This document shows, in pieces, positions 46,989 through 62,653 of a stretch of 64,000 nucleotides of DNA. The translations under genes were made by a program, and so were the position numbers. How positions within the stretch are numbered: position 1 is the stretch's first letter; every line of letters starts with the position of its first letter. Below the pieces are notes generated by a model that saw only the letters and a list, made by a program, of their open reading frames with translations, did not search any database and was not told the DNA's origin. The DNA is from a halophilic archaeon SHRA6 (GTDB lineage: Archaea > Halobacteriota > Halobacteria > Halobacteriales > Haloferacaceae). The DNA lies in contig SOPS01000004.1 in the NCBI GenBank assembly GCA_005239175.1, forward strand, positions 310,001 to 374,000. Reading direction: 5' to 3'.

Positions 46989-48377
46989 ATGCAAGCCGCC
47001 CTCGTTGACGGAATCCTCGAGTCGTTGCGGATCGGCGTCGGCTTCCTCTGGACGGCGGCGTGGGCGATTATCATGGGGCTCGTCATCACGAGTCTCGTTC
47101 AGGTCTACGTCTCAAAAGAGCGGATGGCCACCGTACTTGGAGAGGGGAATCTGAGTGGCCTCACGAAGGCAACCGTATTCGGCGCAGCGAGTAGTGGTTG
47201 TAGCTTTGGCGCGATCGCCATCGGGAAGGGACTGTTCAAGAAAGGAGCGCACACGGTGAACTTCTTCGCGTTCATGTTCGCCTCGACGAACCTCATCGTC
47301 GAGCTCGGTCTGATGATCCTCATTCTTCTCGGATGGGAGTTTCTGGTAGCAGAACTCCTGGGTGGTTTGATTCTCATCGCCGTGATGGCTGTTCTCGTCC
47401 ACCTGACGCTCCCCGAAAATCTCTTCGAGGAGGTTCGACAGGAACTGAATCAGCGTGATCAAAAGGAGGGAGTCACCGAAGATCCGACGTGCGGGATGGA
47501 GGGCAAAGACGAGTATTCTCTCACGACCGACGGCGGCGAGCGGCTCACGTTCTGTTCGGAAGGCTGCATGGAGACCTATCGGCAGGAGCTCGCAAGTAGC
47601 GGCGGATGGCGCGAGGAGTTGGTCTCGTGGGGCGGATGGTACAAAGTCGGGAATCAGTACCGTAAGGAGTGGTCGATGATCTGGAAGGACGTCGTCGCGG
47701 GCTTTCTTATTTCAGGGTTCGTCATCGTCTTCGTCCCGCAGTGGGTCTGGAACACACTATTCATTCAAGGCGATGGCCTGCTCGTGACCGCAGAGAACGC
47801 GATCATGGGTGTCACTATCGCCATATTCAGTTTCGTCGGCAGCATGGGTAACGTCCCGTTCGCCGTCGCACTCTGGGGTGGCGGCATCAGCTTTGCCGGC
47901 GTCATCGCTTTCGTCTACGCCGACCTCATCACGATCCCCGTATTGAACGTCTACCGCAAGTATTACGGCTGGAAGATCATGCTGTACATCCTCGCTGTGT
48001 TCTTCGTGACGATGGCGTTCACCGGCTTTCTCATGGAACTGCTATTCGACGCCCTCGACATCGTCCCTGACTTAGCTGGCGGGGAGACGGCGACCGAACA
48101 GACGTACTTCGAGCTGAACTACACGTTCTACCTAAATCTCGTCGCCTCCGCCCTCTCTGGATTTCTCCTCTACGTGTACCGGCGCGGTCTCGGTGCGCCC
48201 GGGCAGTACCGCGACCCCGTCTGCGGGATGCGAACCGATGACAGCGGGCCGAGTCTCACCTACGACGGCGAGACGTACTATTTCTGTGCGAACCAATGTA
48301 AACAATCGTTCGAGAAGCAGCCAACTGCGTTCGCACAGGATCACCCACAGGTCTCACAGAGCCATGAACATCACTGA
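46989..48377 (+). CDS. Cu/Zn-type efflux permease (SO_0444-like) with two YHS metal-binding domains
   Basis: A 462-residue permease of the DUF318/ArsP-like superfamily. It has membrane segments in two blocks (~10-135 and ~230-395), with conserved AASSGCSFGAIAIGKGLF and FASTNLIVELG. Inserted between the blocks is a YHS-type domain: DPTCGM (Cys168) with FCSEGC (Cys189, Cys193). A second one is at the C-terminus: RDPVCGM (Cys412) with YFCANQC (Cys433, Cys437), followed by a His-rich tail ending HEHH. The start ATG at 46989 follows a palindrome-bearing promoter. Each YHS domain could load metal for export. Substrate inferred as Cu, Zn or similar. Confidence 0.88.
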   Translation: MQAALVDGILESLRIGVGFLWTAAWAIIMGLVITSLVQVYVSKERMATVLGEGNLSGLTKATVFGAASSGCSFGAIAIGKGLFKKGAHTVNFFAFMFASTNLIVELGLMILILLGWEFLVAELLGGLILIAVMAVLVHLTLPENLFEEVRQELNQRDQKEGVTEDPTCGMEGKDEYSLTTDGGERLTFCSEGCMETYRQELASSGGWREELVSWGGWYKVGNQYRKEWSMIWKDVVAGFLISGFVIVFVPQWVWNTLFIQGDGLLVTAENAIMGVTIAIFSFVGSMGNVPFAVALWGGGISFAGVIAFVYADLITIPVLNVYRKYYGWKIMLYILAVFFVTMAFTGFLMELLFDALDIVPDLAGGETATEQTYFELNYTFYLNLVASALSGFLLYVYRRGLGAPGQYRDPVCGMRTDDSGPSLTYDGETYYFCANQCKQSFEKQPTAFAQDHPQVSQSHEHH

Positions 48378-49401: not shown

Positions 49402-50187
49402 TTAGAGTTCCGGAACTGACGTGTACAGGAGGATAATAGCGTTTACAGTCAGTAGTAATAGCACGACCCACTGGAAGATCCGCTCGGGAATATGGTCGAA
49501 TATATACACCTCGATCCAGGCACCAAGGAACACCATCGGAATGGCAATGGCAGCCTCAATCATAAGGGGCGTTGTCACCGACCCAGCGTATGTGAGACTC
49601 CCCAGCCGATACAGCATGAGCGTCCCGAAGAAGGCGGTGAACGTGGCCTTCATTTCCTCATCGCTCCAGAAGCCACTGGCTGACATGAAGGCCCCGTAGA
49701 CGATCATCGGTGGGCCAGGAACGGCAACAGCGCCGCCGAAGACCCCTGCAAGGAGACCTGCCGTTGCACCCACGATCTTCCCTGGTCGGTAGTCTCGCGC
49801 TTCGATCCAGTCCGTGACGGCATCGAGTTGCTGGGTTGCACCGACAATGATGACCGCTAAGACGAGGACGCCCCCGATGGCAACGCGCATCTGTGTCTCA
49901 TCAAACTCACTGAAAACGTAGATGCCGAGCGGCATTCCGACGACAAGGCCGCCGACAGGAACGATCCACTTGCGCCAATCGAACGCGTCCCGAACGCTCC
50001 ACCAGACGCGCCCGTTGCTCACCACTGCGGTCGCCGTAAAAATAATCGACGCACTCGAGGGCGATCGAAACAGCGGCATCATCCCCATCGATACCTGCGC
50101 GAAGCCGAAACCTGCAATCCCATGAACGACGGATGCAACGAGGATAACGACCGCAGATAACCCTGTCGTCACCCAATTAGCCGTCAT
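49402..50187 (-). CDS. TauE/SafE-family sulfite exporter-like permease
   Basis: A 261-residue membrane protein with eight hydrophobic segments in two repeats. The N-terminal repeat has HGIAGFGFAQVSMG and the second has GVFGGAVAVPGPPMIVY, both family signatures. I start at the Met at 50187, which begins the first membrane segment; the frame continues upstream to 50295, but that extension runs into the IS200/IS605 right end. Members export sulfite, sulfoacetate or similar sulfonates. In context with the SoxB-like and rhodanese genes nearby, sulfite export is plausible. Confidence 0.85.
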   Translation of the reverse strand: MTANWVTTGLSAVVILVASVVHGIAGFGFAQVSMGMMPLFRSPSSASIIFTATAVVSNGRVWWSVRDAFDWRKWIVPVGGLVVGMPLGIYVFSEFDETQMRVAIGGVLVLAVIIVGATQQLDAVTDWIEARDYRPGKIVGATAGLLAGVFGGAVAVPGPPMIVYGAFMSASGFWSDEEMKATFTAFFGTLMLYRLGSLTYAGSVTTPLMIEAAIAIPMVFLGAWIEVYIFDHIPERIFQWVVLLLLTVNAIILLYTSVPEL

Positions 50188-50260
50188 CGAGACCACCGCC
50201 GTTGCCACGGGAGAGTCTCCATCGGTTGGGTCGATAGTACGAGTGTATCCTGTATCGTGA

Positions 50261-51444
50261 CTACTCCCACGACTGAAGTCGTGGGCTTCTCTCACTGAGG
50301 GTTAGGCCCACGTCTTCCGGGGAGTTCGCAGGTTCCATCTCACCGCGGGTTCCGTTGAGTCTGACCTGCGTTTCGGGCTGAGTCACAACAGCCCCCACCG
50401 TCGATAGCGGGATCGTGATGTCCTTACCAACGGCTCGTTTTCCGATATTCGATGCTCCATTCTTGTCCGCATTATCATCCAACCCACAGTCGTGACACTC
50501 TACCCGACCCTGCACGTCGCGATTCGTACTCTGCGATCCACACCGCCAACACGTCACCGACGTGTCGTACTCGTTCACGGGGAGGCACTCTCGCCCGTCA
50601 AGATGGGCTTTGTACGTGAGGATGTTCGCCATCTTCGCGTACGGCATCTTGTGCGTCTTGTCGTTCACGTACTGACCCTTGTCGTTGTCAAAACGCAACC
50701 CCGTCATATCACCAAACACGATCACTGCGTTGCGTTCTCGGGCGCGAGCGACCAGTTCGTTCGCCACCTGATGCAACTCGTGTTCAACCGTCCGCGATTC
50801 TTTGTCTCCGATTCGTTCTATGACCTGTGCGCCCTGTCGAACTTTCGCCTTCCCGATAGACTTACGAAGTTGTTTGTAGTGTTCACGGACGCGTCGGACT
50901 TCCGCACCGTGGAACTGTGTGTCGCGGTCCGAGAGGAACGTGCTGACGGCGATCCACTTCGCGCCCATATCGACGGCGAGTACGTCGTCGTAGGCGTCTG
51001 CGACGGCCACAGACCGCTTGCAGACGAGATGGACATACCAGTCACCATCTTGATCGACGAGTTCCGAGTCACGGATATACTCGTCATCGAGAAGGTGCGT
51101 GTCTTTTTCGGGGACGTGAACGGGCACCCAGATGCTATCTCCCGGTCTTTCTTGGGGTTGTAGACGGGAAGTTTGAACCACCACGACGACAGCACGGTAT
51201 CCTCGTCGTGTTCGATGGTGATGCAGTCGTTGCGGAGGACGACTGGTTGCTCGGTGTCCGCTCGCGGGTTCTTGTTCGAGCGGACTTTGCCCGCCTGTTG
51301 TTTGGTGGCGGAGTAGAGGTTTGCTTTGTCGTCACCGTGAACGGCGTCTTGAAACGCGGTGTATTCGCGTTCGACAAGTCGGGCTTTGCGCTCGGTGAGC
51401 GAGTGGAGTTTAACCCGTATCGTGGTGGTGACTTCTTGGTGCAT
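50261..51444 (-). pseudogene. tnpB: TnpB (IS1341-type, RuvC-fold) with a frameshift
   Basis: RNA-guided nuclease/transposon protein related to Cas12. The frame starting at ATG 51444 runs through LPVYNPKKDRE and then changes frame near 51136-51145; the downstream frame resumes at DSIWVPVHVPEKDT and continues to the stop at 50261. One missing G in the run after GACC explains the break. Downstream features: RuvC-I DMGAKWIAVST, zinc-finger cysteines CWRCGS and CHDCG, and RuvC-III DNADKNGASNIG. In RuvC-II the usual catalytic Glu of EDL is Gly (FGDMTG). tnpB begins 2 bp after the tnpA stop. Product is probably non-functional here. Confidence 0.85.
50266..50285. ncRNA. Right-end hairpin, possible 3' end of omega RNA
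   Basis: CCCACGACTGAAGTCGTGGG forms a 9-bp stem with a two-base loop at the 3' end of tnpB. In IS200/IS605 elements, the right end is both the TnpA recognition hairpin and the region giving rise to the TnpB guide RNA (omega RNA). Expression cannot be told from sequence. Confidence 0.5.
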
Positions 51445-51446
51445 TG

Positions 51447-51836
51447 TTATCGTCCGGTCTGTGCTTCGATGTAGTCCTCGATGGTCTGACTCGACACCTC
51501 TCCTGCCGAGGAGACGAAGTACGAGCGTGTCCACAGCGAGGGGAGGCCGAAGTCGAACTCGTCTCGGAGGTTCCGCGAGGTGTAGCCTTTGACCTGTTGG
51601 ATGATTTTGTTTGGCGAGAGTTTCGGGTTGCCCGTGATGAACAGGTGGACGTGGTCGGGCTGGATTGCCAGTCGGAAGATGTCGAGGTCGAGTTCGTCGG
51701 CTTTCTCCTCGATGAGGTGTTCGAGGCGGTCAGCAACCTCGTCCGTCAGCACTGGTTTGCGGTATTTTGGACACCACACAAAGTGGTAGTGGAGGTTGTG
51801 TACCGACGTTCGTTCTCGACTATACCCGCGTGGCAT
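51447..51836 (-). CDS. tnpA: TnpA, IS200/IS605 Y1 transposase
   Basis: A 129-residue HUH-family single-strand transposase. The HUH motif is HVH in QPDHVHLFIT (residues ~60-69) and the catalytic tyrosine is in TIEDYIEAQ (Tyr ~123). N-terminal NLHYHFVWCPKYRKPVL and VKGYTSRNLRDEF are family signatures. The protein is complete, so it could mobilise the element or internal deletions. Start ATG at 51836. Confidence 0.95.
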   Translation of the reverse strand: MPRGYSRERTSVHNLHYHFVWCPKYRKPVLTDEVADRLEHLIEEKADELDLDIFRLAIQPDHVHLFITGNPKLSPNKIIQQVKGYTSRNLRDEFDFGLPSLWTRSYFVSSAGEVSSQTIEDYIEAQTGR

Positions 51837-51936
51837 ACTATTAGATAGATTCTACTCACTATTAGTTGTTTTTGTTCTATCAACCCTGCGCCGTGCTATC
51901 GAGGGGTGATTGCATCGGAGTTGTCGGATTCATCCA

Positions 51937-51952
51937 CACGACTAAAGTCGTG
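51937..51952. repeat. Left-end hairpin of the IS200/IS605 element
   Basis: CACGACT-AA-AGTCGTG, 7-bp arms with a 2-base loop. It matches the right-end hairpin except in the loop and outer stem and marks the tnpA-side end of the element. Confidence 0.7.
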
Positions 51953-51970
51953 GGCTTTCTGCTCGAGCCT

Positions 51971-52186
51971 TTGTAATCCTCACCGTAAAAAATAGCAGAA
52001 CTCGAGATCGCGGTTCGGATCTGCAACGACACTCGGGTCGAATTCTGACGTGGCTCGAACGCAGGTCACCCAACGCGATCGAGTGTAACGGTACCTTACT
52101 AGGGCCCTTCGATCGTCCAGAATCATTTGTGGTACCATAACTAAAAATTGTGAACAGTTAGCCTCCGCCGCTGGAATCACAGTATT
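51971..52186. other. Intergenic region upstream of the SoxB-like gene
   Basis: About 215 bp, containing one end of a minus-strand open frame (51980-52186 part) with protein-like composition (RYRYTRSRWVTCVRATSEFD) that I cannot assign and that has no start of its own outside the adjacent gene; it may be a gene remnant. The promoter of the SoxB-like gene lies here (AT-rich near 52140-52160). Confidence 0.4.
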
Positions 52187-53965
52187 ATGAACGAGCATGA
52201 AACCGGTATTGGCGAGTGGCGTTCCCTCGGCGATGCTCCCGTCAGCGACAGTGATGCTGCCGTGGTATTCGCCCACGTCAGCGACCTTCACGGGCAGCTA
52301 ACGCCGCGGTATCAGGTCTACTACGATAATCCAACGTCGGAGCCGGACTTCGACTTCGGTGAGGACGATCGCATCATCGAACGCGGCGGCGGGATTCCCC
52401 TGCTCGCAGCCAAACTCGACGAGCTTCGTGAGGCCCACGACGTTTGTACGCTCATGAGTGGGGACACCTTCCACGGCTCCGCCCTGACCACCTACACCGA
52501 TGGGCGAGCGATGCTCGATCCCATCAACGAACACGTCGCGCCCGACATCTATGTCCCGGGGAACTGGGACTACTCGAGTGAAGCCGCCGAGGAAGGCAAC
52601 TTCCTCGAGTTAATGGACGACCTCGACGCCCCTATTCTCGCGAACAACCTCTACGATTACGAGACAAACGAGCGGTTGTACGACGCGTACCGCCTTTTCG
52701 AGATCGGCGGACTCTCTGTGGGCGTTGTTGGGATGACGAACGTCTACGTCGATCGGATGGCACCCGCGTTCTACGAGGGGAGGTATCGCTTTGGCAAGCA
52801 TCCGACACTCCTCGAGGAGTCCGCACAGGCTGCGCGTGCGGACGGCGCGGATGTTGTGGTCGCAGTTACAGAGATCGGTCTCCCGTGGATGGTCCAAGCC
52901 GCCAAGGACTGTACGAGCGTGGACGTAATATTCAGCGCGCATACCCATGAGTACACCTACGACCCGATCGTCGTCGAGGAGACTAACACGGTCGTGGTCG
53001 AATCCGGCATGGGCGAGGCGCTCGGGCGTGTGGATCTCCGTGTTAGAGATGGGGAGATACAGTTCCGACACCACCTCTACTGTCTGACCGAGGGTGGCGA
53101 ACACACGCCGGAGCCTGACATCGATGCCCAAGAGACCGTCGAAGCCGTGCGTGCGCCATTCCTCAAGGACGACCCGGGATTCGAGCGAGGCGCGGGCACG
53201 CTCGATCGGCCGCTGGATACGGTCATCGGCCGGACAAAAAACCCACTCTACCGGCAGTCATTCCTCGAGAGCGCGTGGAACACGCTATTCAACGACGCGC
53301 TCCGAGCACACTTCGACACCGACCTCGCCGTCTCGCACGGGTTCCGGTACGGGACTGCCATCCCGCCTGGCGACATCACACTCGGGGACCTGTACACGTT
53401 CTTCCCGATGACGACACCCGTCGCTCGCGGCGTGGCCTATGGCCAGCAACTCACGACTCACATGGAGCGGTTCCTTGAGGACAACTTCACGCCCTACCCC
53501 TACGATCAAGAGGACGGCCGCGTCAGAAACTTCTCCTCGAACGTCGAGGTAACCATCGATCCGACCGCAAAGCGCAGCCGTCGGCTCGTCGAAATGCAAA
53601 TCGACGGTGAACGGGTCGATCCAGAGGAGACATACTCTGTGGCAACGTTCCGCCGTCCAGGAGATCCAGAACGTGATCTCGGCAACTGCGGATTTCCGTT
53701 TCAAAGCGTCGAGGTTGACGACGGAACAGTTCCTGTTGACGTCATCGTCGAGTACCTCAAAGAACACTCCCCTGTCGACTACGAAGTGATGGGACTAGTC
53801 CAGACCGCAGTCGACGGCGGCCGTGCGCAGAACACGCCCGCAGACGGGCCGTACCCGTTCATCCAACCGGGCGTCGACTATCAGGACGGTGAGGCCTACT
53901 GTGAAACATCCATGATTCCCCGTGAGAACGCCTTCCCCGAGGAAGGACGGAATCGAACGCGATAG
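52187..53965 (+). CDS. SoxB/5'-nucleotidase-like metallophosphoesterase
   Basis: A 592-residue protein of the 5'-nucleotidase superfamily. Metallophosphoesterase motifs in order: VSDLHGQL (Asp33, His35), SGDTFHGSA (Asp near 94), GNWDYS (Asn near 118) and SAHTHEY (near residue 250), followed by a C-terminal nucleotidase domain (DALRAHFDTDLAVSHGFRYG). The stretch LTTYTDGRAMLDPINEH and GNWDY resemble SoxB, the dimanganese thiosulfohydrolase, but SoxB is normally periplasmic and this protein has no signal peptide. It could be an ordinary cytoplasmic 5'-nucleotidase. The neighbours (TauE, rhodanese-MBL) favour a sulfur role; unproven. Confidence 0.8.
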   Translation: MNEHETGIGEWRSLGDAPVSDSDAAVVFAHVSDLHGQLTPRYQVYYDNPTSEPDFDFGEDDRIIERGGGIPLLAAKLDELREAHDVCTLMSGDTFHGSALTTYTDGRAMLDPINEHVAPDIYVPGNWDYSSEAAEEGNFLELMDDLDAPILANNLYDYETNERLYDAYRLFEIGGLSVGVVGMTNVYVDRMAPAFYEGRYRFGKHPTLLEESAQAARADGADVVVAVTEIGLPWMVQAAKDCTSVDVIFSAHTHEYTYDPIVVEETNTVVVESGMGEALGRVDLRVRDGEIQFRHHLYCLTEGGEHTPEPDIDAQETVEAVRAPFLKDDPGFERGAGTLDRPLDTVIGRTKNPLYRQSFLESAWNTLFNDALRAHFDTDLAVSHGFRYGTAIPPGDITLGDLYTFFPMTTPVARGVAYGQQLTTHMERFLEDNFTPYPYDQEDGRVRNFSSNVEVTIDPTAKRSRRLVEMQIDGERVDPEETYSVATFRRPGDPERDLGNCGFPFQSVEVDDGTVPVDVIVEYLKEHSPVDYEVMGLVQTAVDGGRAQNTPADGPYPFIQPGVDYQDGEAYCETSMIPRENAFPEEGRNRTR

Positions 53966-54028
53966 ACAACCCCGCACTCGTGACCGCTCCGACGAACAAC
54001 GACCCAGACGTGACACTGATAATTGACA

Positions 54029-55177
54029 ATGGTTAAGAAAATCACTGCGCAACAGCTTGCGGACAAGATCGACACCGACGAACAATTCACGCTAATCGAC
54101 ACGCGTCCGGAAGACAGCTTCGAGGCCTGGCACGTGCAAGACGCTGAGAACGTTCCGTATGACCCTTACGAGGGCTTGCGTGATGACCAACTGAACGAAG
54201 TGAATGCACTGGTCGACGGCGGACCGCTCATCGCGATCTGTGGGAAGGGTTTGACATCGACGCAGTTTGCGTTCGATCTCGACGAACACGGCTACGACGA
54301 CATCTCGATCGTCACTGACGGGATGGAGGGATGGAGCAAGCTCTACGAGGTCGTTCCCATCGAGACATCCACCGACGACCTCATTATTCGGCAGGTGCAG
54401 CGCAGAGCAAAGGGCTGTCTCGGCTACGTGATCGGCTCGAAAGAGAGTCAAGAAGCCGTCCTTTTCGATGCGACCAGACAGACCGATCGGTTCAAAGTTG
54501 CTGGCCAAGACGCTGGGCTCTCCATAACGCGTGTGGTTGATACGCACGTCCACGCCGATCACATCTCAGGGAGTCCGGCACTCGCCGACGAGGTCGGCGT
54601 ATCCTACCACCTCGGCGATCCAGCCAGTGAGCGCGGTGTCGAGTACGAATACGAACCGCTGTCAGATGGAACGGTCATCCAAGTCGGCGACATCGAGATC
54701 GAGGCACTCCACACACCTGGGCACACCTCGGAAATGATGAACTACCTCGTCGACGGTGAATTCCTCTTGACGGGCGATACACTGTTCGTCGACTCTGTCG
54801 GGCGAACGGAACTCCAGTTTGGCGAGGACGACGCCTCCCATGGAGCGGAGCTGCTGTATGACTCGCTCCACGAGACGATCCTTGAGCTCCCAGACGACAC
54901 CACGATCCTGCCGGGTCACCTTACCGTCACGAGCGACGGACGCTATGAGAACGGTACGCCGGGTGAACCCCTTGAGGCACGGCTCGGGGACCTCCGCGAC
55001 GAACTTGACTTTCTCGAGTTCGATCGCGACGCGTTCGTCGATCGCCTGACTGAGGACGCTCCGGAGAAACCCCCGAACTACGAGACGGTTATCGCGATCA
55101 ACACCGGGAAAGAGATCGTCGAAGATGAGAGCGAGGCGACGGAACTCGAAATGGGGCCGAACAACTGTGCCGCGTAA
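54029..55177 (+). CDS. Rhodanese-metallo-beta-lactamase fusion (persulfide dioxygenase-like)
   Basis: A 382-residue fusion. Residues ~1-110 form a rhodanese domain with active Cys71 in AICGKGLTS; residues ~115-350 form a metallo-beta-lactamase fold with the metal motif THVHADH (His173, His175, Asp177, His178) and GHTSEMM. MBL proteins of this type next to or fused with rhodanese are often ETHE1-like sulfur dioxygenases that oxidise persulfide to sulfite; the order here (rhodanese first) is less common. I start at the ATG at 54029 rather than the TTG at 54023. The next gene's start lies within its last codons. Confidence 0.88.
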   Translation: MVKKITAQQLADKIDTDEQFTLIDTRPEDSFEAWHVQDAENVPYDPYEGLRDDQLNEVNALVDGGPLIAICGKGLTSTQFAFDLDEHGYDDISIVTDGMEGWSKLYEVVPIETSTDDLIIRQVQRRAKGCLGYVIGSKESQEAVLFDATRQTDRFKVAGQDAGLSITRVVDTHVHADHISGSPALADEVGVSYHLGDPASERGVEYEYEPLSDGTVIQVGDIEIEALHTPGHTSEMMNYLVDGEFLLTGDTLFVDSVGRTELQFGEDDASHGAELLYDSLHETILELPDDTTILPGHLTVTSDGRYENGTPGEPLEARLGDLRDELDFLEFDRDAFVDRLTEDAPEKPPNYETVIAINTGKEIVEDESEATELEMGPNNCAA

Positions 55178-56576
55178 ACAGCACTCGCTCTCCCGTCGCA
55201 GGCTCCTCCAGCTGACGGGAGCGTCCACTCTCGGCGCGCTCGCGGGCTGTACCGGTCAGCTACCGGGCACCGACGACAGTGAGGGACAGGAGGTACCGCC
55301 GCGCTCGACAGTTACAGCCGAGCCAGATACGTCCGTCAACCTCACCGCGGCGTCTGGGACCCTTCAGCCAGCACCCGAGATGTCGACGACCAACTGGCTG
55401 TACAAAGGTGAATTCCCCGGGCCGGAGCTACGCGTCCAGGAAGGGGACGTACTCAGCGTCGAATTGAGTAACGATCTCCAGGCCGAAACAACGATTCACT
55501 GGCACGGAGTCCCCGTCGCGAACCCAGTCGATGGGGTGCCGAACGTAACGCAGGACCCAGTCGCTCCTGGCGATACGTTCACGTACACGTTCCGTGCCGA
55601 ACCCGCCGGGACGTATTTCTATCACAGTCACGTTGGGCTCCAGCTCGACCGGGGATTGCTCGGCCCACTAATCGTAGAAGAGCGTGACCCGCACGTCGAG
55701 TACGATCGCGAGTACATCGTCGTCGTCGACGATTACCTCCCCGAAGAGCCGGAACTTCCTTCGGACGGAGGAATGAGTGGGGACGGAATGATGGGAGACG
55801 TTCGGCCGCCGTACGAGGGCCTCCTGATCAACGGTCGGCTTCCAGAGGATCCGCCGAGGTTCGAAGTGGCAGAAGGAGAGCGGGTGCGCCTCCGGTTCGT
55901 GAACGCCGGCAGTGCGACAGTCTTTGGTGTACGAATCGCAGGTCACGAGATGACGGTGACCCACGCCGATGGTCGGCCTGTCGAACCCATCGACGTGGAC
56001 TCGTTCGTCTTCGGGGCCGGTGAGCGCTATGACGTCGTGATTGAGGCGACGAACCCAGGCACGTGGGCCGTTCAAGCGGATGCGCTCGATGGAAACGAAC
56101 CACCAGCCACGGCTGTTGTCGAGTACGAGTTAGCGGGCGGGGAGAGCCCAAAGCGCCCGTCGTCGGCAAGCAACCGGCTGGAGTACGGTGACTTACAGGC
56201 GATTTCCTCGCTCAACGGGATGAGTGGAGAGCCGGATCGAACGTTCGATCTGACGCTCTCACGCGGCAGAGGCCAGTCCTACACGTGGACGATAGACGGG
56301 CAGGCCTACCCGGACGCCGATCCGCTCCAGGTCCGGCCCGACGAACACGTCCGAATCCGGATGACCAATCAGAGCCCAGTCGTTCACCCGATGCATCTTC
56401 ACGGTCACTTCTTCCAAGTCGGCAACGCGATCAAAGACACGGTCATTGTTCCGGGACATCGAGGGCAGGTGACGATCGACTTCCACGCCGACAACCCCGG
56501 TCGGTGGTTGTTCCACTGTCACAATCTCTACCATCTCGATGCAGGAATGGCACGCGTCGTGAGATACGTCGAGTGA
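55167..56576 (+). CDS. Multicopper oxidase, Tat-exported lipoprotein
   Basis: A 469-residue laccase-like enzyme with three cupredoxin domains. The N-terminus SRRRLLQLTGASTLGALAGC has the twin Arg and lipobox of a Tat lipoprotein. The copper sites are intact: IHWHGV and YHSHVG for type 2/3 in domain 1, HPMHLHGHFF and HCHNLYHLDAGM in domain 3. Met-rich stretch DGGMSGDGMMGD near residue 200 suggests cuprous ion oxidation. The GTG start at 55167 overlaps the end of the rhodanese-MBL gene by 11 bp, so the two are coupled. Likely a copper-detoxifying oxidase on the cell surface. Confidence 0.92.
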   Translation: MPRKQHSLSRRRLLQLTGASTLGALAGCTGQLPGTDDSEGQEVPPRSTVTAEPDTSVNLTAASGTLQPAPEMSTTNWLYKGEFPGPELRVQEGDVLSVELSNDLQAETTIHWHGVPVANPVDGVPNVTQDPVAPGDTFTYTFRAEPAGTYFYHSHVGLQLDRGLLGPLIVEERDPHVEYDREYIVVVDDYLPEEPELPSDGGMSGDGMMGDVRPPYEGLLINGRLPEDPPRFEVAEGERVRLRFVNAGSATVFGVRIAGHEMTVTHADGRPVEPIDVDSFVFGAGERYDVVIEATNPGTWAVQADALDGNEPPATAVVEYELAGGESPKRPSSASNRLEYGDLQAISSLNGMSGEPDRTFDLTLSRGRGQSYTWTIDGQAYPDADPLQVRPDEHVRIRMTNQSPVVHPMHLHGHFFQVGNAIKDTVIVPGHRGQVTIDFHADNPGRWLFHCHNLYHLDAGMARVVRYVE

Positions 56577-56806: not shown

Positions 56807-57103
56807 ATGACTGAAATCAAACTCGGCCGCTGGCTGCTTGTGGCGTTGGCGATCGTCGGACTCGCGTTCGCCGCGCCCGTGGTCAGTGCCCACGGCAACG
56901 ACACGACTGCTGACGACGCGCATACAGACAATGCCACTGCCGATGACTGGGCCACGTGGATGGAGGCGCAGATGACCGAACACATGGGCCCAGGGAGCGT
57001 CGAGTGGATGGAGTCGCACATGGGTGTGACCGTCGACGAGATGGGCCAGGCCATGGCTGACGGTGAGCACAGAGGCGGGATGCACGGGCAGGGCCACTGC
57101 TGA
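56807..57103 (+). CDS. Secreted Met/His-rich small protein
   Basis: A 98-residue exported peptide. It has a Sec-type signal (residues ~1-28, ending VVSAHG), then a segment rich in Asp, Thr and Met, with several His (TEHMG, EHRGGMHGQGHC). A GGAG ribosome site is at 56796-56799. The final residues give His, Met and a C-terminal Cys, all soft metal ligands. It follows the multicopper oxidase by 230 bp and precedes a SHOCT protein. Probable extracellular copper-binding protein; no defined family. Confidence 0.7.
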   Translation: MTEIKLGRWLLVALAIVGLAFAAPVVSAHGNDTTADDAHTDNATADDWATWMEAQMTEHMGPGSVEWMESHMGVTVDEMGQAMADGEHRGGMHGQGHC

Positions 57104-57157: not shown

Positions 57158-57529
57158 ATGACGCAACTCACCACCCACATCGGACGCACTGCTCGTCAAC
57201 TCACGATACTCGCTGTCCCACTGCTGATCGTAGCAACTGGGACGATCGTGGCGACTGGAACGGCTCTTGCCCATGATGGTGGAAGCTACGGCGGCATGAT
57301 GGGTGGGAGCGGTTGGGGTCTCTTCGGCGGAGTGATGGGGCTTTGGGGACTTCTCTGGATGGGGCTTCTCATCGCTATCCCCCTCTACATCGTTTATGTC
57401 CTCCTCAATCGAGAGTCCGCAGGGAACGACAAGCAGGCGCAGTCGGTTCTCCGCGAACGTTATGCCCGCGGTGAGCTCTCTGAAGAGGAATTCGATCGGC
57501 GGCGAGACAAACTCGAACGTTCCAAGTAA
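57158..57529 (+). CDS. SHOCT-domain small membrane protein
   Basis: A 123-residue protein. The N-terminal hydrophobic segment (~18-38) may be a cleavable signal, followed by a Gly/Met-rich stretch (GGSYGGMMGGSGWGLFGG), a second membrane segment (~57-82) and a C-terminal SHOCT domain (residues ~95-122: LRERYARGELSEEEFDRRRD). SHOCT proteins with such Met/Gly loops occur beside copper genes in many prokaryotes; their function is not established. Same strand as, and 54 bp after, the Met/His-rich peptide. Confidence 0.82.
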   Translation: MTQLTTHIGRTARQLTILAVPLLIVATGTIVATGTALAHDGGSYGGMMGGSGWGLFGGVMGLWGLLWMGLLIAIPLYIVYVLLNRESAGNDKQAQSVLRERYARGELSEEEFDRRRDKLERSK

Positions 57530-59120: not shown

Positions 59121-59519
59121 TTACGGCTCAACGGATCGGGAGCCGTCGAGTGCGACTAAGACGGCAGTTGCGCGGTTGGTTGTGCTATATTTGCGCCACT
59201 TTCCGTCTTTTCGTCGTGTGAGGAGCCCGGCCTCTGTGAGCTGGGAGAGTGCATGGCTAATCGCACTGTCGCTCACATCAAGCAGTGGGGCGAACTCACA
59301 GACGCACAGCTCCTCACCAGCCGTGTGAATAATTCGAACGATTTTGTAGCGCGTTTCGTTGGACATCGCTGACAGTAGGTCGACATCCGATTCGAGATCG
59401 GGCCCGCCGACGGCCGCATCCAACTCTTCAAGTTCCTCGAGTCGCTCTCGAAGCGCGTCGTTCGTACAACTCCCTCGTTCGTCGGTTAGATACCGCTGGA
59501 GTCGATCGCTCGCTGACAT
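59121..59519 (-). CDS. arsR: ArsR-type metalloid-responsive repressor
   Basis: A 132-residue winged-helix repressor. The HTH is in residues ~45-110 (LLSAMSNETRYKIVRIIH, then CEFAPLLDVSDSAISHALSQ). ELCVCEF gives a Cys72-x-Cys74 pair in the position where As(III)-sensing ArsR proteins bind metalloid, with Cys18 as a possible third ligand. It is divergent from the arsD-arsA genes, about 495 bp away, and the regions before both share a TTGACCAA(C/T)AA element. Dissociation from DNA upon As(III)/Sb(III) binding would induce the operon. Confidence 0.9.
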   Translation of the reverse strand: MSASDRLQRYLTDERGSCTNDALRERLEELEELDAAVGGPDLESDVDLLSAMSNETRYKIVRIIHTAGEELCVCEFAPLLDVSDSAISHALSQLTEAGLLTRRKDGKWRKYSTTNRATAVLVALDGSRSVEP

Positions 59520-59527
59520 ACAGATAG

Positions 59528-59538
59528 TTGACCAACAA
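59528..59538 (+). promoter_or_regulatory. Candidate ArsR site, copy 1
   Basis: TTGACCAACAA lies 9-19 bp upstream of the arsR start and differs at one base from copy 2 before arsD. Confidence 0.45.
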
Positions 59539-59992
59539 ATAAATTAACTCTTTTGCAGTCACTGTCCACTCTACAGTCACACCTACAACATATTAATTTA
59601 GCCTTTACTAATACGATTTTTGTATGATAATCTATACGGTCCACCGAGAGACGACGTAGTCGACATCGCCAGTGCGAGAAATAGAGGCGATAGAACAGGT
59701 GGTGCACTCCGACCCTTTGAGATAGAGCTGATGTCGTACATACGAGTCTACTACAGTGCGCTCGCCTCCCGATGTATCGCTACTGCTGAAACGAACGACG
59801 ACGACGGTTCGTGATCTGCAGAAGCCTTTATAAACTTATCTCGCTTGGTCGATCATCGGTCCCCTATCTCGGCCGATACACGATTTAGTTATCATCGAAA
59901 CGTTTACGTATATAATTCACATTTTTCTCAAATGAATAGGAGACAAGACAACTCAAAATAACGATTGTCAGTCCCAACTAGTTGAGGCTCGT

Positions 59993-60003
59993 TTGACCAA
60001 TAA
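59993..60003 (+). promoter_or_regulatory. Candidate ArsR site, copy 2
   Basis: TTGACCAATAA lies 12-22 bp upstream of the arsD start. It lies within a wider inverted pattern GTTTG-N-CAAAC that overlaps the arsD initiation region. Confidence 0.45.
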
Positions 60004-60014
60004 CCAAACAAACC

Positions 60015-60344
60015 ATGACCGAAATCCAACTCTACGAAGAAGCGATGTGTTGTTCCACAGGTGTTTGTGGACCCGACCCCGACGACGAACTCGTCGAACT
60101 GAGCGCCGCACTTGACCAACTCGAAGACGAATTCGCGGACGCCGAGATCTCGCGTGCGAATATGCAGCATAACATCGACCAATTCCTCAACACGCAGAAG
60201 ATCTATGATCTCGTCCAGGAAAATGGCCCTGAGATCCTCCCAATCACGACCGTCAACGGCGAGATCGTCGCCAAAGAGGAGTATCTCTCCTACGACGAGT
60301 TGGCAGCCGAACTGCGCGCCAATCAACCTCAAGAGGCCGAATAA
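60015..60344 (+). CDS. arsD: ArsD arsenite metallochaperone
   Basis: A 109-residue protein of the ArsD family, which hands As(III) to ArsA and also acts as a weak repressor. The conserved arsenite ligands are Cys12, Cys13 and Cys18 in MCCSTGVCG; the thioredoxin-like fold continues with YDLVQENGPEILPITTVNGE. It is followed directly by arsA with no gap (60344/60345). Acidic C-terminal tail typical of haloarchaea. Confidence 0.95.
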   Translation: MTEIQLYEEAMCCSTGVCGPDPDDELVELSAALDQLEDEFADAEISRANMQHNIDQFLNTQKIYDLVQENGPEILPITTVNGEIVAKEEYLSYDELAAELRANQPQEAE

Positions 60345-62282
60345 ATGCAATCAACGCAAGTGACAACTGACGCCCGAGAGATTATCGAACCGAGCGGCAA
60401 GGACACCGAGTTCGTCTTTTTCAGCGGCAAAGGTGGCGTCGGAAAGAGCACTGTGAGCTGTGCCACAGCGACCTGGCTCGCCGACAACGACTACAACACC
60501 CTGTTGGTAACGACTGATCCTGCACCGAATCTCTCGGACATTTTCGGTCAGCAGATCGGCCACAAAGTCACTGACATCGACGGGGTCGACAACCTCTCTG
60601 CCATCGAGATTGACCCTGATCAGGCCGCCGAGGATTATCGACAAGAAACAATTGAGCCGATGCGTGAGCTGCTCAACGACGAGCAGATCAGCGCCGTCGA
60701 AGAACAGCTCAACAGTCCTTGTGTCGAGGAGATTGCCGCCTTCGACAACTTCGTCGATTTTATGGACTCACCGGAATACGACGTTGTCGTCTTCGATACC
60801 GCACCCACGGGTCACACGATCCGGCTGATGGAATTGCCCTCAGACTGGAACGCCGAACTTGAAAAGGGAGGGTCGACGTGTATCGGCCCCGCTGCCTCAA
60901 TGGAAGAGCGTAAGAAGGATTACGAGCGCGCAATCGACACACTGCAAGATAGCGAGAAAACCTCATTTGCCTTTGTCGGCAAACCTGAGGACTCCTCGAT
61001 CGACGAGATCCAGCGGAGTGCGTCGGAGCTTGTCGAACTCGGTATCGAATCTCAACTCCTGATTATCAACGGCTACCTACCGGGATCGGTCTGTGAGGAT
61101 CCCTTCTTCTCCGGGAAACGCGAGGACGAACAGGCGGTTATCGAACGCGCTGCCTCCGAGTTCGGCGCCAACGCGATGGCAACGTATCCGCTCCAGCCCG
61201 GCGAGATCGCCGGTCTCGATCTGTTGGCCGACGTCGGTGGCGTCCTCTACGACGGCGACGACGCGACCGTTAACGTGGGTTCAGCGACTAACGTCGATAT
61301 CGACGAGTCTGTTTATTTTGACTCGCTGACCGACCCAGATGCGGTCACCGAGAAGCTCCAGCCGGTCGACGGTGAGACGCGCTATTTATTTTTCACCGGG
61401 AAAGGCGGTGTCGGGAAGAGTACTATCGCCGCAACGTCGGCAACCAAACTCGCAGAGGCGGGCTACGAGACACTCGTCGTGACGACCGATCCGGCCGCCC
61501 ATCTTGAAGACATCTTTGGCGAGCCAGTCGGCCACGACCCTACCTCGGTAAGCCAAGAGAACCTCGATGCAGCCCGCATCGATCAGGAGCAGGCCCTCGA
61601 AGAGTACCGCGAGCAGGTCCTCGATCACGTCACCGAGATGTACGCCGAGAAGGAAGACACCGAGATCGACGTCGACGCTGCCATCGCCAATGTCGAGGAG
61701 GAATTGGAGTCGCCGTGTGCCGAGGAGATGGCCGCGCTCGAAAAGTTCGTAGCCTACTTTGACGAGGACGGCTACGACATCGTCGTCTTCGACACCGCGC
61801 CGACCGGTCACACCCTTCGACTCCTCGAACTCCCATCCGACTGGAAAGGCTTCATGGATCTCGGATCGCTGACGAAGGGTGCGGCGCCCGCCAAAGGCGA
61901 TCAGTACGACAAGGTGATCGAGACGATGCAGAATCCTGACAAAAGCTCGTTTGCCTTCGTCATGTACCCCGAGTACACGCCGATGATGGAGGCCCACCGG
62001 GCGGCCGAGGACCTGAAGGATCAAGTCGGCATCGAGACCGCCTTCGTCGTCGCCAACTACCTCCTACCCGAGGAGTATGGCGACAACGCCTTCTTCGCTA
62101 ATCGGCGGGCCCAACAACAGCAATATCTCAGCGAAATCAAGGACCGTTTCGAGACCCCCATGATGCTCGCGCCGCTTCGTCAGGACGAACCGATCGGTCT
62201 CGACGAACTCAGTGTGTTCGGTGACGTAGTGACCGGGCTGGATACTGTCGAGCGGCAGCCAGCGGAGGTGTCACCGCAATGA
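60345..62282 (+). CDS. arsA: ArsA arsenite-transporting ATPase
   Basis: A 645-residue duplicated ATPase. Each half (A1 ~20-310, A2 ~340-630) has a P-loop: SGKGGVGKST with Lys34 and TGKGGVGKST with Lys358, a signal region DTAPTGHT and a metalloid-binding Cys: Cys126 in SPCVEE and Cys458 in SPCAEE. ArsA normally drives an ArsB arsenite channel, and no arsB or acr3 lies in this window, so it must use a permease encoded elsewhere. The stop overlaps the next gene by 4 bp (62279-62282). Confidence 0.95.
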   Translation: MQSTQVTTDAREIIEPSGKDTEFVFFSGKGGVGKSTVSCATATWLADNDYNTLLVTTDPAPNLSDIFGQQIGHKVTDIDGVDNLSAIEIDPDQAAEDYRQETIEPMRELLNDEQISAVEEQLNSPCVEEIAAFDNFVDFMDSPEYDVVVFDTAPTGHTIRLMELPSDWNAELEKGGSTCIGPAASMEERKKDYERAIDTLQDSEKTSFAFVGKPEDSSIDEIQRSASELVELGIESQLLIINGYLPGSVCEDPFFSGKREDEQAVIERAASEFGANAMATYPLQPGEIAGLDLLADVGGVLYDGDDATVNVGSATNVDIDESVYFDSLTDPDAVTEKLQPVDGETRYLFFTGKGGVGKSTIAATSATKLAEAGYETLVVTTDPAAHLEDIFGEPVGHDPTSVSQENLDAARIDQEQALEEYREQVLDHVTEMYAEKEDTEIDVDAAIANVEEELESPCAEEMAALEKFVAYFDEDGYDIVVFDTAPTGHTLRLLELPSDWKGFMDLGSLTKGAAPAKGDQYDKVIETMQNPDKSSFAFVMYPEYTPMMEAHRAAEDLKDQVGIETAFVVANYLLPEEYGDNAFFANRRAQQQQYLSEIKDRFETPMMLAPLRQDEPIGLDELSVFGDVVTGLDTVERQPAEVSPQ

Positions 62283-62653
62283 GCGACGCCGAAGCCGTCC
62301 AGAACGCTGAGGACGCCGTTGAACAGAAACTTCGGGCGTTCATCGACGCGATCGAGGATAGTGAAACGTACCAGCAGTACATGGCCGCAAACGAACGGCT
62401 CGAAAGCGACGATGAAGCCATGCAACTGCTCAAAGAGTATCGCCAGAAACAGCAACAGATGCAGCAGAGCTTCGATCAGTCGCTCATGGCCGAACTCCAA
62501 GAGATTCAAACCGAACTCGCGGAAAACGAGACTATTCAGCAGCACAAGGCCGCCCAAATGGAGTTAGTCGAGTTGCTCGAAGAGACTAACGACATGATTA
62601 GTGAACCGATCGGCATGGAGTTCGCGCAGTCCTCGGGAGGTGGGTGCTGTTGA
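62279..62653 (+). CDS. YlbF-like coiled-coil protein with C-terminal vicinal cysteines
   Basis: A 124-residue, largely alpha-helical protein resembling the YlbF/YmcA family (residues ~15-105: IDAIEDSETYQQYMAANERL, QLLKEYRQKQQQMQQ and MELVELLEETNDMI). It ends with SSGGGCC, placing two adjacent Cys (123-124) on a flexible Gly tail. Its ATG overlaps the arsA stop by 4 bp, so it is translated with arsA. YlbF proteins in Bacillus work in a complex with an Fe-S cluster; nobody I know of links them to arsenic. Vicinal cysteines are typical As(III) ligands, so delivery or sensing of metalloid is a reasonable hypothesis. Confidence 0.85.
   Translation: MSDAEAVQNAEDAVEQKLRAFIDAIEDSETYQQYMAANERLESDDEAMQLLKEYRQKQQQMQQSFDQSLMAELQEIQTELAENETIQQHKAAQMELVELLEETNDMISEPIGMEFAQSSGGGCC

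Follow-up and report, generated by a model that had tools for sequence, protein, structure and literature searches.

A conserved haloarchaeal block with a SoxB relative, probably mis-annotated as a nucleotidase, that may handle sulfur compounds

Introduction

Can a relative of the thiosulfohydrolase SoxB serve sulfur chemistry in an archaeon in which the carrier proteins SoxY and SoxZ are not detected, or is it just one more nucleotidase? The question is raised by a 64,000-nucleotide stretch of the halophilic archaeon SHRA6 (positions 310,001 to 374,000 of SOPS01000004.1; hereafter the window), which lies on an 840-kb contig (C3) of a 3.36-Mb haloarchaeal genome. A gene for a SoxB-like protein (52187..53965, forward strand) is followed there by a fusion of rhodanese and metallo-beta-lactamase (Rhd-MBL) and by a multicopper oxidase (MCO), and a gene for a TauE/SafE-family anion exporter lies upstream in divergent orientation, beyond an insertion sequence (IS). 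Each of these four genes is intact. We find that this module is real, conserved and probably mis-annotated. As to its role, the evidence leans towards a mobile haloarchaeal module that handles sulfane sulfur, thiosulfate and sulfite, akin to the SoxYZ-independent pathway of SoxB and sulfur dioxygenase in Erythrobacter flavus.

The SoxB-like protein belongs to the SoxB superfamily

The protein encoded at 52187..53965 is a metallo-hydrolase of 592 amino acids, with a calcineurin-type metallophosphoesterase domain and a 5'-nucleotidase C-terminal domain (Pfam). Nucleotidases have this fold and these domains in common with it, and the public annotation reads 'bifunctional metallophosphatase/5'-nucleotidase', so that it could be taken for an ordinary cytoplasmic nucleotidase or phosphoesterase. 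Similarity searches point elsewhere. The best NCBIfam model is TIGR04486, thiosulfohydrolase SoxB (E 2e-63), and among PDB structures the best match is SoxB of T. thermophilus (1e-32), with an E-value lower by over 20 orders of magnitude than that of the best nucleotidase (3e-10).

The sequence-only reading had suggested placing the protein in a tree with SoxB and 5'-nucleotidases. We built such trees, and in both of them SoxB, bacterial SoxB-like proteins (see below) and the haloarchaeal proteins were set apart from the 5'-nucleotidases with a support of 100/99; the second tree left out long or misframed rows of the first (e.g. G_L026, G_L015 and G_L018). The four SoxB sequences formed a clade of their own (100/99 and 100/100 in the two trees), with the haloarchaeal proteins outside it. 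Monophyly of SoxB plus the haloarchaeal proteins was not recovered, and the approximately unbiased (AU) test does not reject it (p-AU 0.067).

Active-site residues tell the same story. By analogy with the metal-ligand and catalytic assignments of UshA, the predicted metal ligands are D33, H35, D93, N126, E229, H252 and H254. Six of them (D33, H35, D93, N126, H252 and H254) are kept in all haloarchaeal rows of the alignment; E229 is likewise invariant in these rows, and at that position the SoxB, bacterial SoxB-like and nucleotidase rows compared all have His. The catalytic His of the nucleotidase motif GNH(D/E), kept in 8/8 nucleotidase rows, is replaced by Trp (W127) in all haloarchaeal proteins. 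The equivalent of this motif is HW in SoxB and HW or NW in bacterial SoxB-like proteins. R387 belongs to a GxRxG motif shared with SoxB; nucleotidases carry GG(I/V)R in its place, a motif absent from the SoxB-like protein. W127 and R387 occur together in 23/23 haloarchaeal rows, in 4/4 SoxB and in 10 of 12 rows from bacteria, with the remaining two outside the clade; Pontibacter copy 3 and the Salinibacter protein have GNHD, lie outside the SoxB-like clade and are placed with nucleotidases in the second tree. Based on the tree, the residues and the sulfur genes of the neighbourhood, we rejected an ordinary 5'-nucleotidase, an identity that we regard as very improbable; the kinship with SoxB proposed at the outset is borne out.

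Kinship is not identity, though. The protein shares SDLHGQ-type, GDT, NW/HW, HTH and GxRxG motifs with SoxB of canonical systems (e.g. Paracoccus, Allomeiothermus), yet it differs from the canonical Sox system (SoxXAYZB(CD)) in several respects. It scores 214.5 bits on TIGR04486, below the curated cut-off of 550, and true SoxB proteins reach 861 and 726. It falls in a separate clade. Inspection of the N-terminus, in the window and in relatives, finds no export signal (as had been noticed from the letters of the window), where the SoxB rows start with Tat-like signals. Finally, searches of the 19 haloarchaeal genomes carrying the SoxB-like protein found neither SoxY nor SoxZ; the SoxZ search gave a match in 4/4 plasmids with true SoxB and in 0/9 plasmids with SoxB-like or related proteins, whereas for SoxY there was no positive control. 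These results do not support equating the protein with a strict Sox enzyme, and judged from its sequence it is a member of the SoxB superfamily, not SoxB proper. An AlphaFold model was poor (mean predicted local distance difference test score 60.5) and was not used as evidence, nor was the Foldseek search made with it, in which SoxB came first (E 8e-25) with UshA near (9e-24), at a root-mean-square deviation above 15 Å.

The four genes form a conserved block

Among 84,980 species genomes scanned, we recovered 33 haloarchaeal loci whose SoxB-like proteins are 55-96% identical. Within the order, 19 of 195 genomes carry the class (148-212 bits), and in the next-scoring group (below 145 bits) those members that were inspected show the GNH motif of nucleotidases. 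The block of TauE, SoxB-like, Rhd-MBL and, in part, MCO genes is kept across many haloarchaeal genera, with partner counts that, given the shared ancestry of the loci, do not represent independent events. TauE is the most faithful partner: of 32 assessable loci, 23 have it upstream in divergent orientation and one more has it rearranged, and it is the sole partner left in three (L038, L048 and L057). As the source genome has only three TauE genes, this frequency rules out chance co-location. Rhd-MBL directly follows the SoxB-like gene in 19/33 loci, three others have a distant copy some 640 nt further downstream, and an MCO, sometimes fragmentary, is found in 14/33. In Halobacterium sp. DL1 the annotated order is a hypothetical protein (at the TauE position), a '5'-nucleotidase', a rhodanese and a multicopper oxidase. 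Available titles and abstracts on haloarchaeal SoxB or sulfur dioxygenase contain nothing on this module.

SoxB-like genes are broken at two loci (L060 and L062) beside an intact TauE, which shows that the block decays, and one plasmid (CP132293.1) bears two diverged copies of the module (L039 and L050). Both observations fit an accessory, mobile block.

In the window, the TauE gene (49402..50187, reverse strand, PF01925 with E 2.5e-21, start probably near 50187) and the SoxB-like gene are split by an IS200/IS605-type insertion that is not part of the module (approximate limits 50260..51970, reverse strand, PF01797 and PF07282). This element encodes a TnpB-like open reading frame (50261-51184) and a Y1 transposase (51447-51836) and has palindromic ends at 50266-50288 and 51937-51957. 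In relatives the two genes are adjacent, with no IS element at that spot. Because homology to them breaks off near 50258 and picks up again near 51994, we conclude that the element jumped into the divergent intergenic region. Synteny thus supports the view that the exporter across the IS element, noted from the window alone as lying next door, belongs to the same block.

The Rhd-MBL protein (54029..55177, forward strand, 382 amino acids, probably starting at ATG 54029) carries Pfam rhodanese and Lactamase_B domains, in this order. Its PDB matches include persulfide dioxygenase and ETHE1 structures, and it aligns with 4ysb, 4chl and BpPRF. The active-site Cys loop of the rhodanese (CGKGLTS) is intact, and the ETHE1-like motifs THVHADH, PGHT and GRTEL are all found, so that the sulfur-dioxygenase type assigned on first sight stands. 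Like BpPRF, CstB-type and Blh fusions, it joins an ETHE1-like dioxygenase to a rhodanese; unlike them, it has the rhodanese at the N-terminus and the dioxygenase at the C-terminus, and it reaches 51 bits on the Blh model against a cut-off of 625.

The MCO (55167..56576, forward strand), of CopA/laccase type, has three Cu-oxidase domains, and its copper motifs are all intact. It probably starts at GTG 55167, so that the Rhd-MBL gene ends 11 nt inside it, in agreement with the overlap first described. A Tat lipoprotein signal is predicted (SLSRRRLLQLTGASTLGALAGC), which would place the MCO outside the membrane and not in the cytoplasm. The proposal of a cytoplasmic cluster consequently holds for the SoxB-like protein, which has no signal peptide, and fails for this predicted exported lipoprotein.

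Bacterial relatives lie among sulfur genes

Proteins about 25-29% identical to the haloarchaeal one, likewise labelled nucleotidases, are encoded on bacterial plasmids. In Runella the neighbours are TauE, two MBL proteins (including an MBL-rhodanese), a TsdA-type cytochrome, DsrE and YeeE; in Sporosarcina, TusA, DsrE, TauE and an Rhd-MBL with the same domain order as in the window. Sphingobium has MBL, YeeE and TauE, Pontibacter a rhodanese, a sulfate exporter and a TsdA-type cytochrome, Hymenobacter YeeE, DsrE and a TsdA-type cytochrome, and Cohnella TusA and DsrE; the Bradyrhizobium gene also lies among sulfur genes. The Bosea copy and a second Hymenobacter copy do not. As for the 5'-nucleotidase comparators, four records had no sulfur neighbours and Azospirillum had one neighbour with a sulfur-transferase domain.

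The clusters of Runella, Sporosarcina, Sphingobium, Hymenobacter and Pontibacter hence resemble the haloarchaeal block in their MBL/rhodanese, TauE and DsrE/TusA partners, and most of the bacterial SoxB-like proteins, as the haloarchaeal ones, have no signal peptide; SoxZ was not found on their plasmid sequences. Unlike the haloarchaeal proteins, they are mostly shorter (about 480 amino acids), have His at the position of E229, and often come with a TsdA-type cytochrome and YeeE. A Methylosinus plasmid (L075) has soxZ, soxB, two DsrE genes and a DUF302 gene, but few further Sox genes in the region displayed; a DUF302-like family likewise turns up repeatedly close to the haloarchaeal block.

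A proposed pathway without SoxYZ

A precedent exists in E. flavus 21-3, where a protein of SoxB type, bearing the label 'bifunctional metallophosphatase/5'-nucleotidase', functions without SoxYZ, and where deletion of its gene almost abolishes the formation of zero-valent sulfur from thiosulfate (PMC7608252). TsdA makes tetrathionate in that strain, SoxB is proposed to free sulfate from it, and MBL/rhodanese dioxygenases (SdoA-SdoB) oxidise sulfur to sulfite (PMC7608252). By this published description the block in the window is alike in its SoxB-type protein without SoxYZ, in the very annotation, and in an MBL-rhodanese dioxygenase in the cluster. It differs in that its genome has no detected TsdA-type domain, its Rhd-MBL has an N-terminal rhodanese, its partners are a haloarchaeal TauE and an MCO, and its SoxB relatives form an archaeal clade with an invariant Glu at a predicted metal-ligand position. 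The SoxYZ-independent pathway is further supported by the clusters on bacterial plasmids that combine a TsdA-type cytochrome with Rhd-MBL, TauE, DsrE/TusA and YeeE, and together these data support reading the block in the window as a haloarchaeal variant of it without TsdA.

In the pathway that we favour, the cytoplasmic SoxB-like enzyme would hydrolyse a soluble thiosulfonate at its terminal sulfonate, yielding sulfate and a persulfide. Candidate substrates are tetrathionate, or thiosulfate bound to a low-molecular thiol or to TusA/DsrE. TusA and DsrE3A of Metallosphaera cuprina are reported to form Cys-thiosulfonates (PMC4175335), making TusA/DsrE a candidate for the cytoplasmic carrier in archaea; TusA and YeeE-type genes are present in 19/19 genomes with the SoxB-like protein. 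The rhodanese domain would then transfer sulfane sulfur, the fused persulfide dioxygenase would oxidise it to sulfite, and TauE would export the sulfite, or the sulfate, if it transports outwards as we suppose. The data themselves establish gene integrity, kinship, active-site residues, undetected SoxYZ, the archaeal synteny and the similar bacterial partner sets; the substrate, the transport direction and the role of the MCO are our inference.

Several observations weigh against this pathway. The TsdA-type domain PF21342 was not found in the source genome; the search matched in all three bacterial control plasmids, and in 4/18 other genomes with the SoxB-like protein at 29-37 bits. The invariant E229, replacing a His common to all compared SoxB, SoxB-like and nucleotidase proteins, means that the chemistry may differ. 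The four most diverged copies (L055, L056, L058 and L063; 55-65% identity) do not have these partners. Homologues of Rhd-MBL occur in 184/195 genomes of the order, and so it is an unspecific partner. AU tests gave no order for the haloarchaeal clade, SoxB and the bacterial SoxB-like group (p-AU 0.067). The block lies amid genes for copper and arsenic, and may therefore have a role in metal resistance. Lastly, two of the three SoxB-like genes of E. flavus showed no deletion effect (PMC7608252), a reason for caution in assigning function by kinship.

SoxB naturally acts on Cys-S-sulfonates, and a different role can be built on this activity. The block could be a module for sulfite/persulfide detoxification in which sulfite from the dioxygenase attacks gamma-glutamylcysteine or protein disulfides and the SoxB-like enzyme hydrolyses the resulting S-sulfonate to thiol and sulfate, with no thiosulfate oxidation involved. 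Such a repair function would agree with the cytoplasmic location of the enzyme, with TauE being its commonest and at times only partner, and with the TsdA-type domain missing from the source genome. We nevertheless think it unlikely, as the bacterial relatives, with their TsdA-type cytochromes and YeeE thiosulfate importers, point to thiosulfate.

Thiosulfate oxidation free of both carrier and cytochrome c is another conceivable scheme: the exported MCO would replace TsdA, and the SoxB relative with its Glu site, the dioxygenase and export by TauE would follow. We give this scheme little credence. The MCO is most likely an accessory part engaged in copper handling, which is likelier than a TsdA-like role because the MCO is of CopA type and 19/33 loci have none or just a remnant of one.

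Should the sulfur module be confirmed, surveys that seek soxB together with soxYZ would miss potential for sulfur oxidation or detoxification in hypersaline systems. A whole clade of haloarchaeal SoxB relatives and a set on bacterial plasmids are annotated as nucleotidases, although their sequences, their place in the tree and the genes around them speak for sulfur chemistry. The module suggests a simpler sulfur oxidation or detoxification, without the usual Sox carrier proteins, and the invariant Glu offers a clear-cut mark, open to experimental test, by which a distinct type of enzyme could be told.

Neighbouring genes and other sulfur genes

Downstream of the MCO, the window encodes a small exported Met/His-rich protein of 98 amino acids (56807..57103, forward strand), called from its open reading frame and composition; a Pfam search gave no family match, and it is conserved in relatives, often next after the MCO. 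A small membrane protein with a SHOCT domain comes after it (57158..57529, forward strand, PF09851) and is also conserved in relatives, where it often follows. With the MCO, an ArsP/YHS permease and P-type ATPases, these two proteins could make up a copper (metal)-resistance island as the functional unit, whose sulfur enzymes would handle copper-induced sulfur stress or be passengers. The CopA type of the MCO and the Met/His-rich protein would suit such an island, as would the ArsP/YHS permease and MarR-like gene upstream, and the P-type ATPase nearby, at many loci. We consider it quite unlikely, given that TauE and Rhd-MBL are kept more often than the MCO and that the bacterial relatives lie in sulfur clusters, not copper ones.

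The ArsP-type permease of the window (46989-48377), with YHS/TRASH metal domains, often lies upstream of the module in relatives. An arsenic cluster adjoins the sulfur block at 59121-62653 and comprises an ArsR-like regulator, ArsD, a double ArsA ATPase and a YlbF-family protein.

The source genome holds a second sulfur cluster on contig C4 (L087, G000:C4:1-19999; L088, G000:C4:20000-39999), with an SQR-like FAD oxidoreductase, two TusA, DsrE2, a distant Rhd-MBL and a split YeeE/YedE pair, together with a TauE, a COX1-type oxidase and a heavy-metal P-type ATPase.

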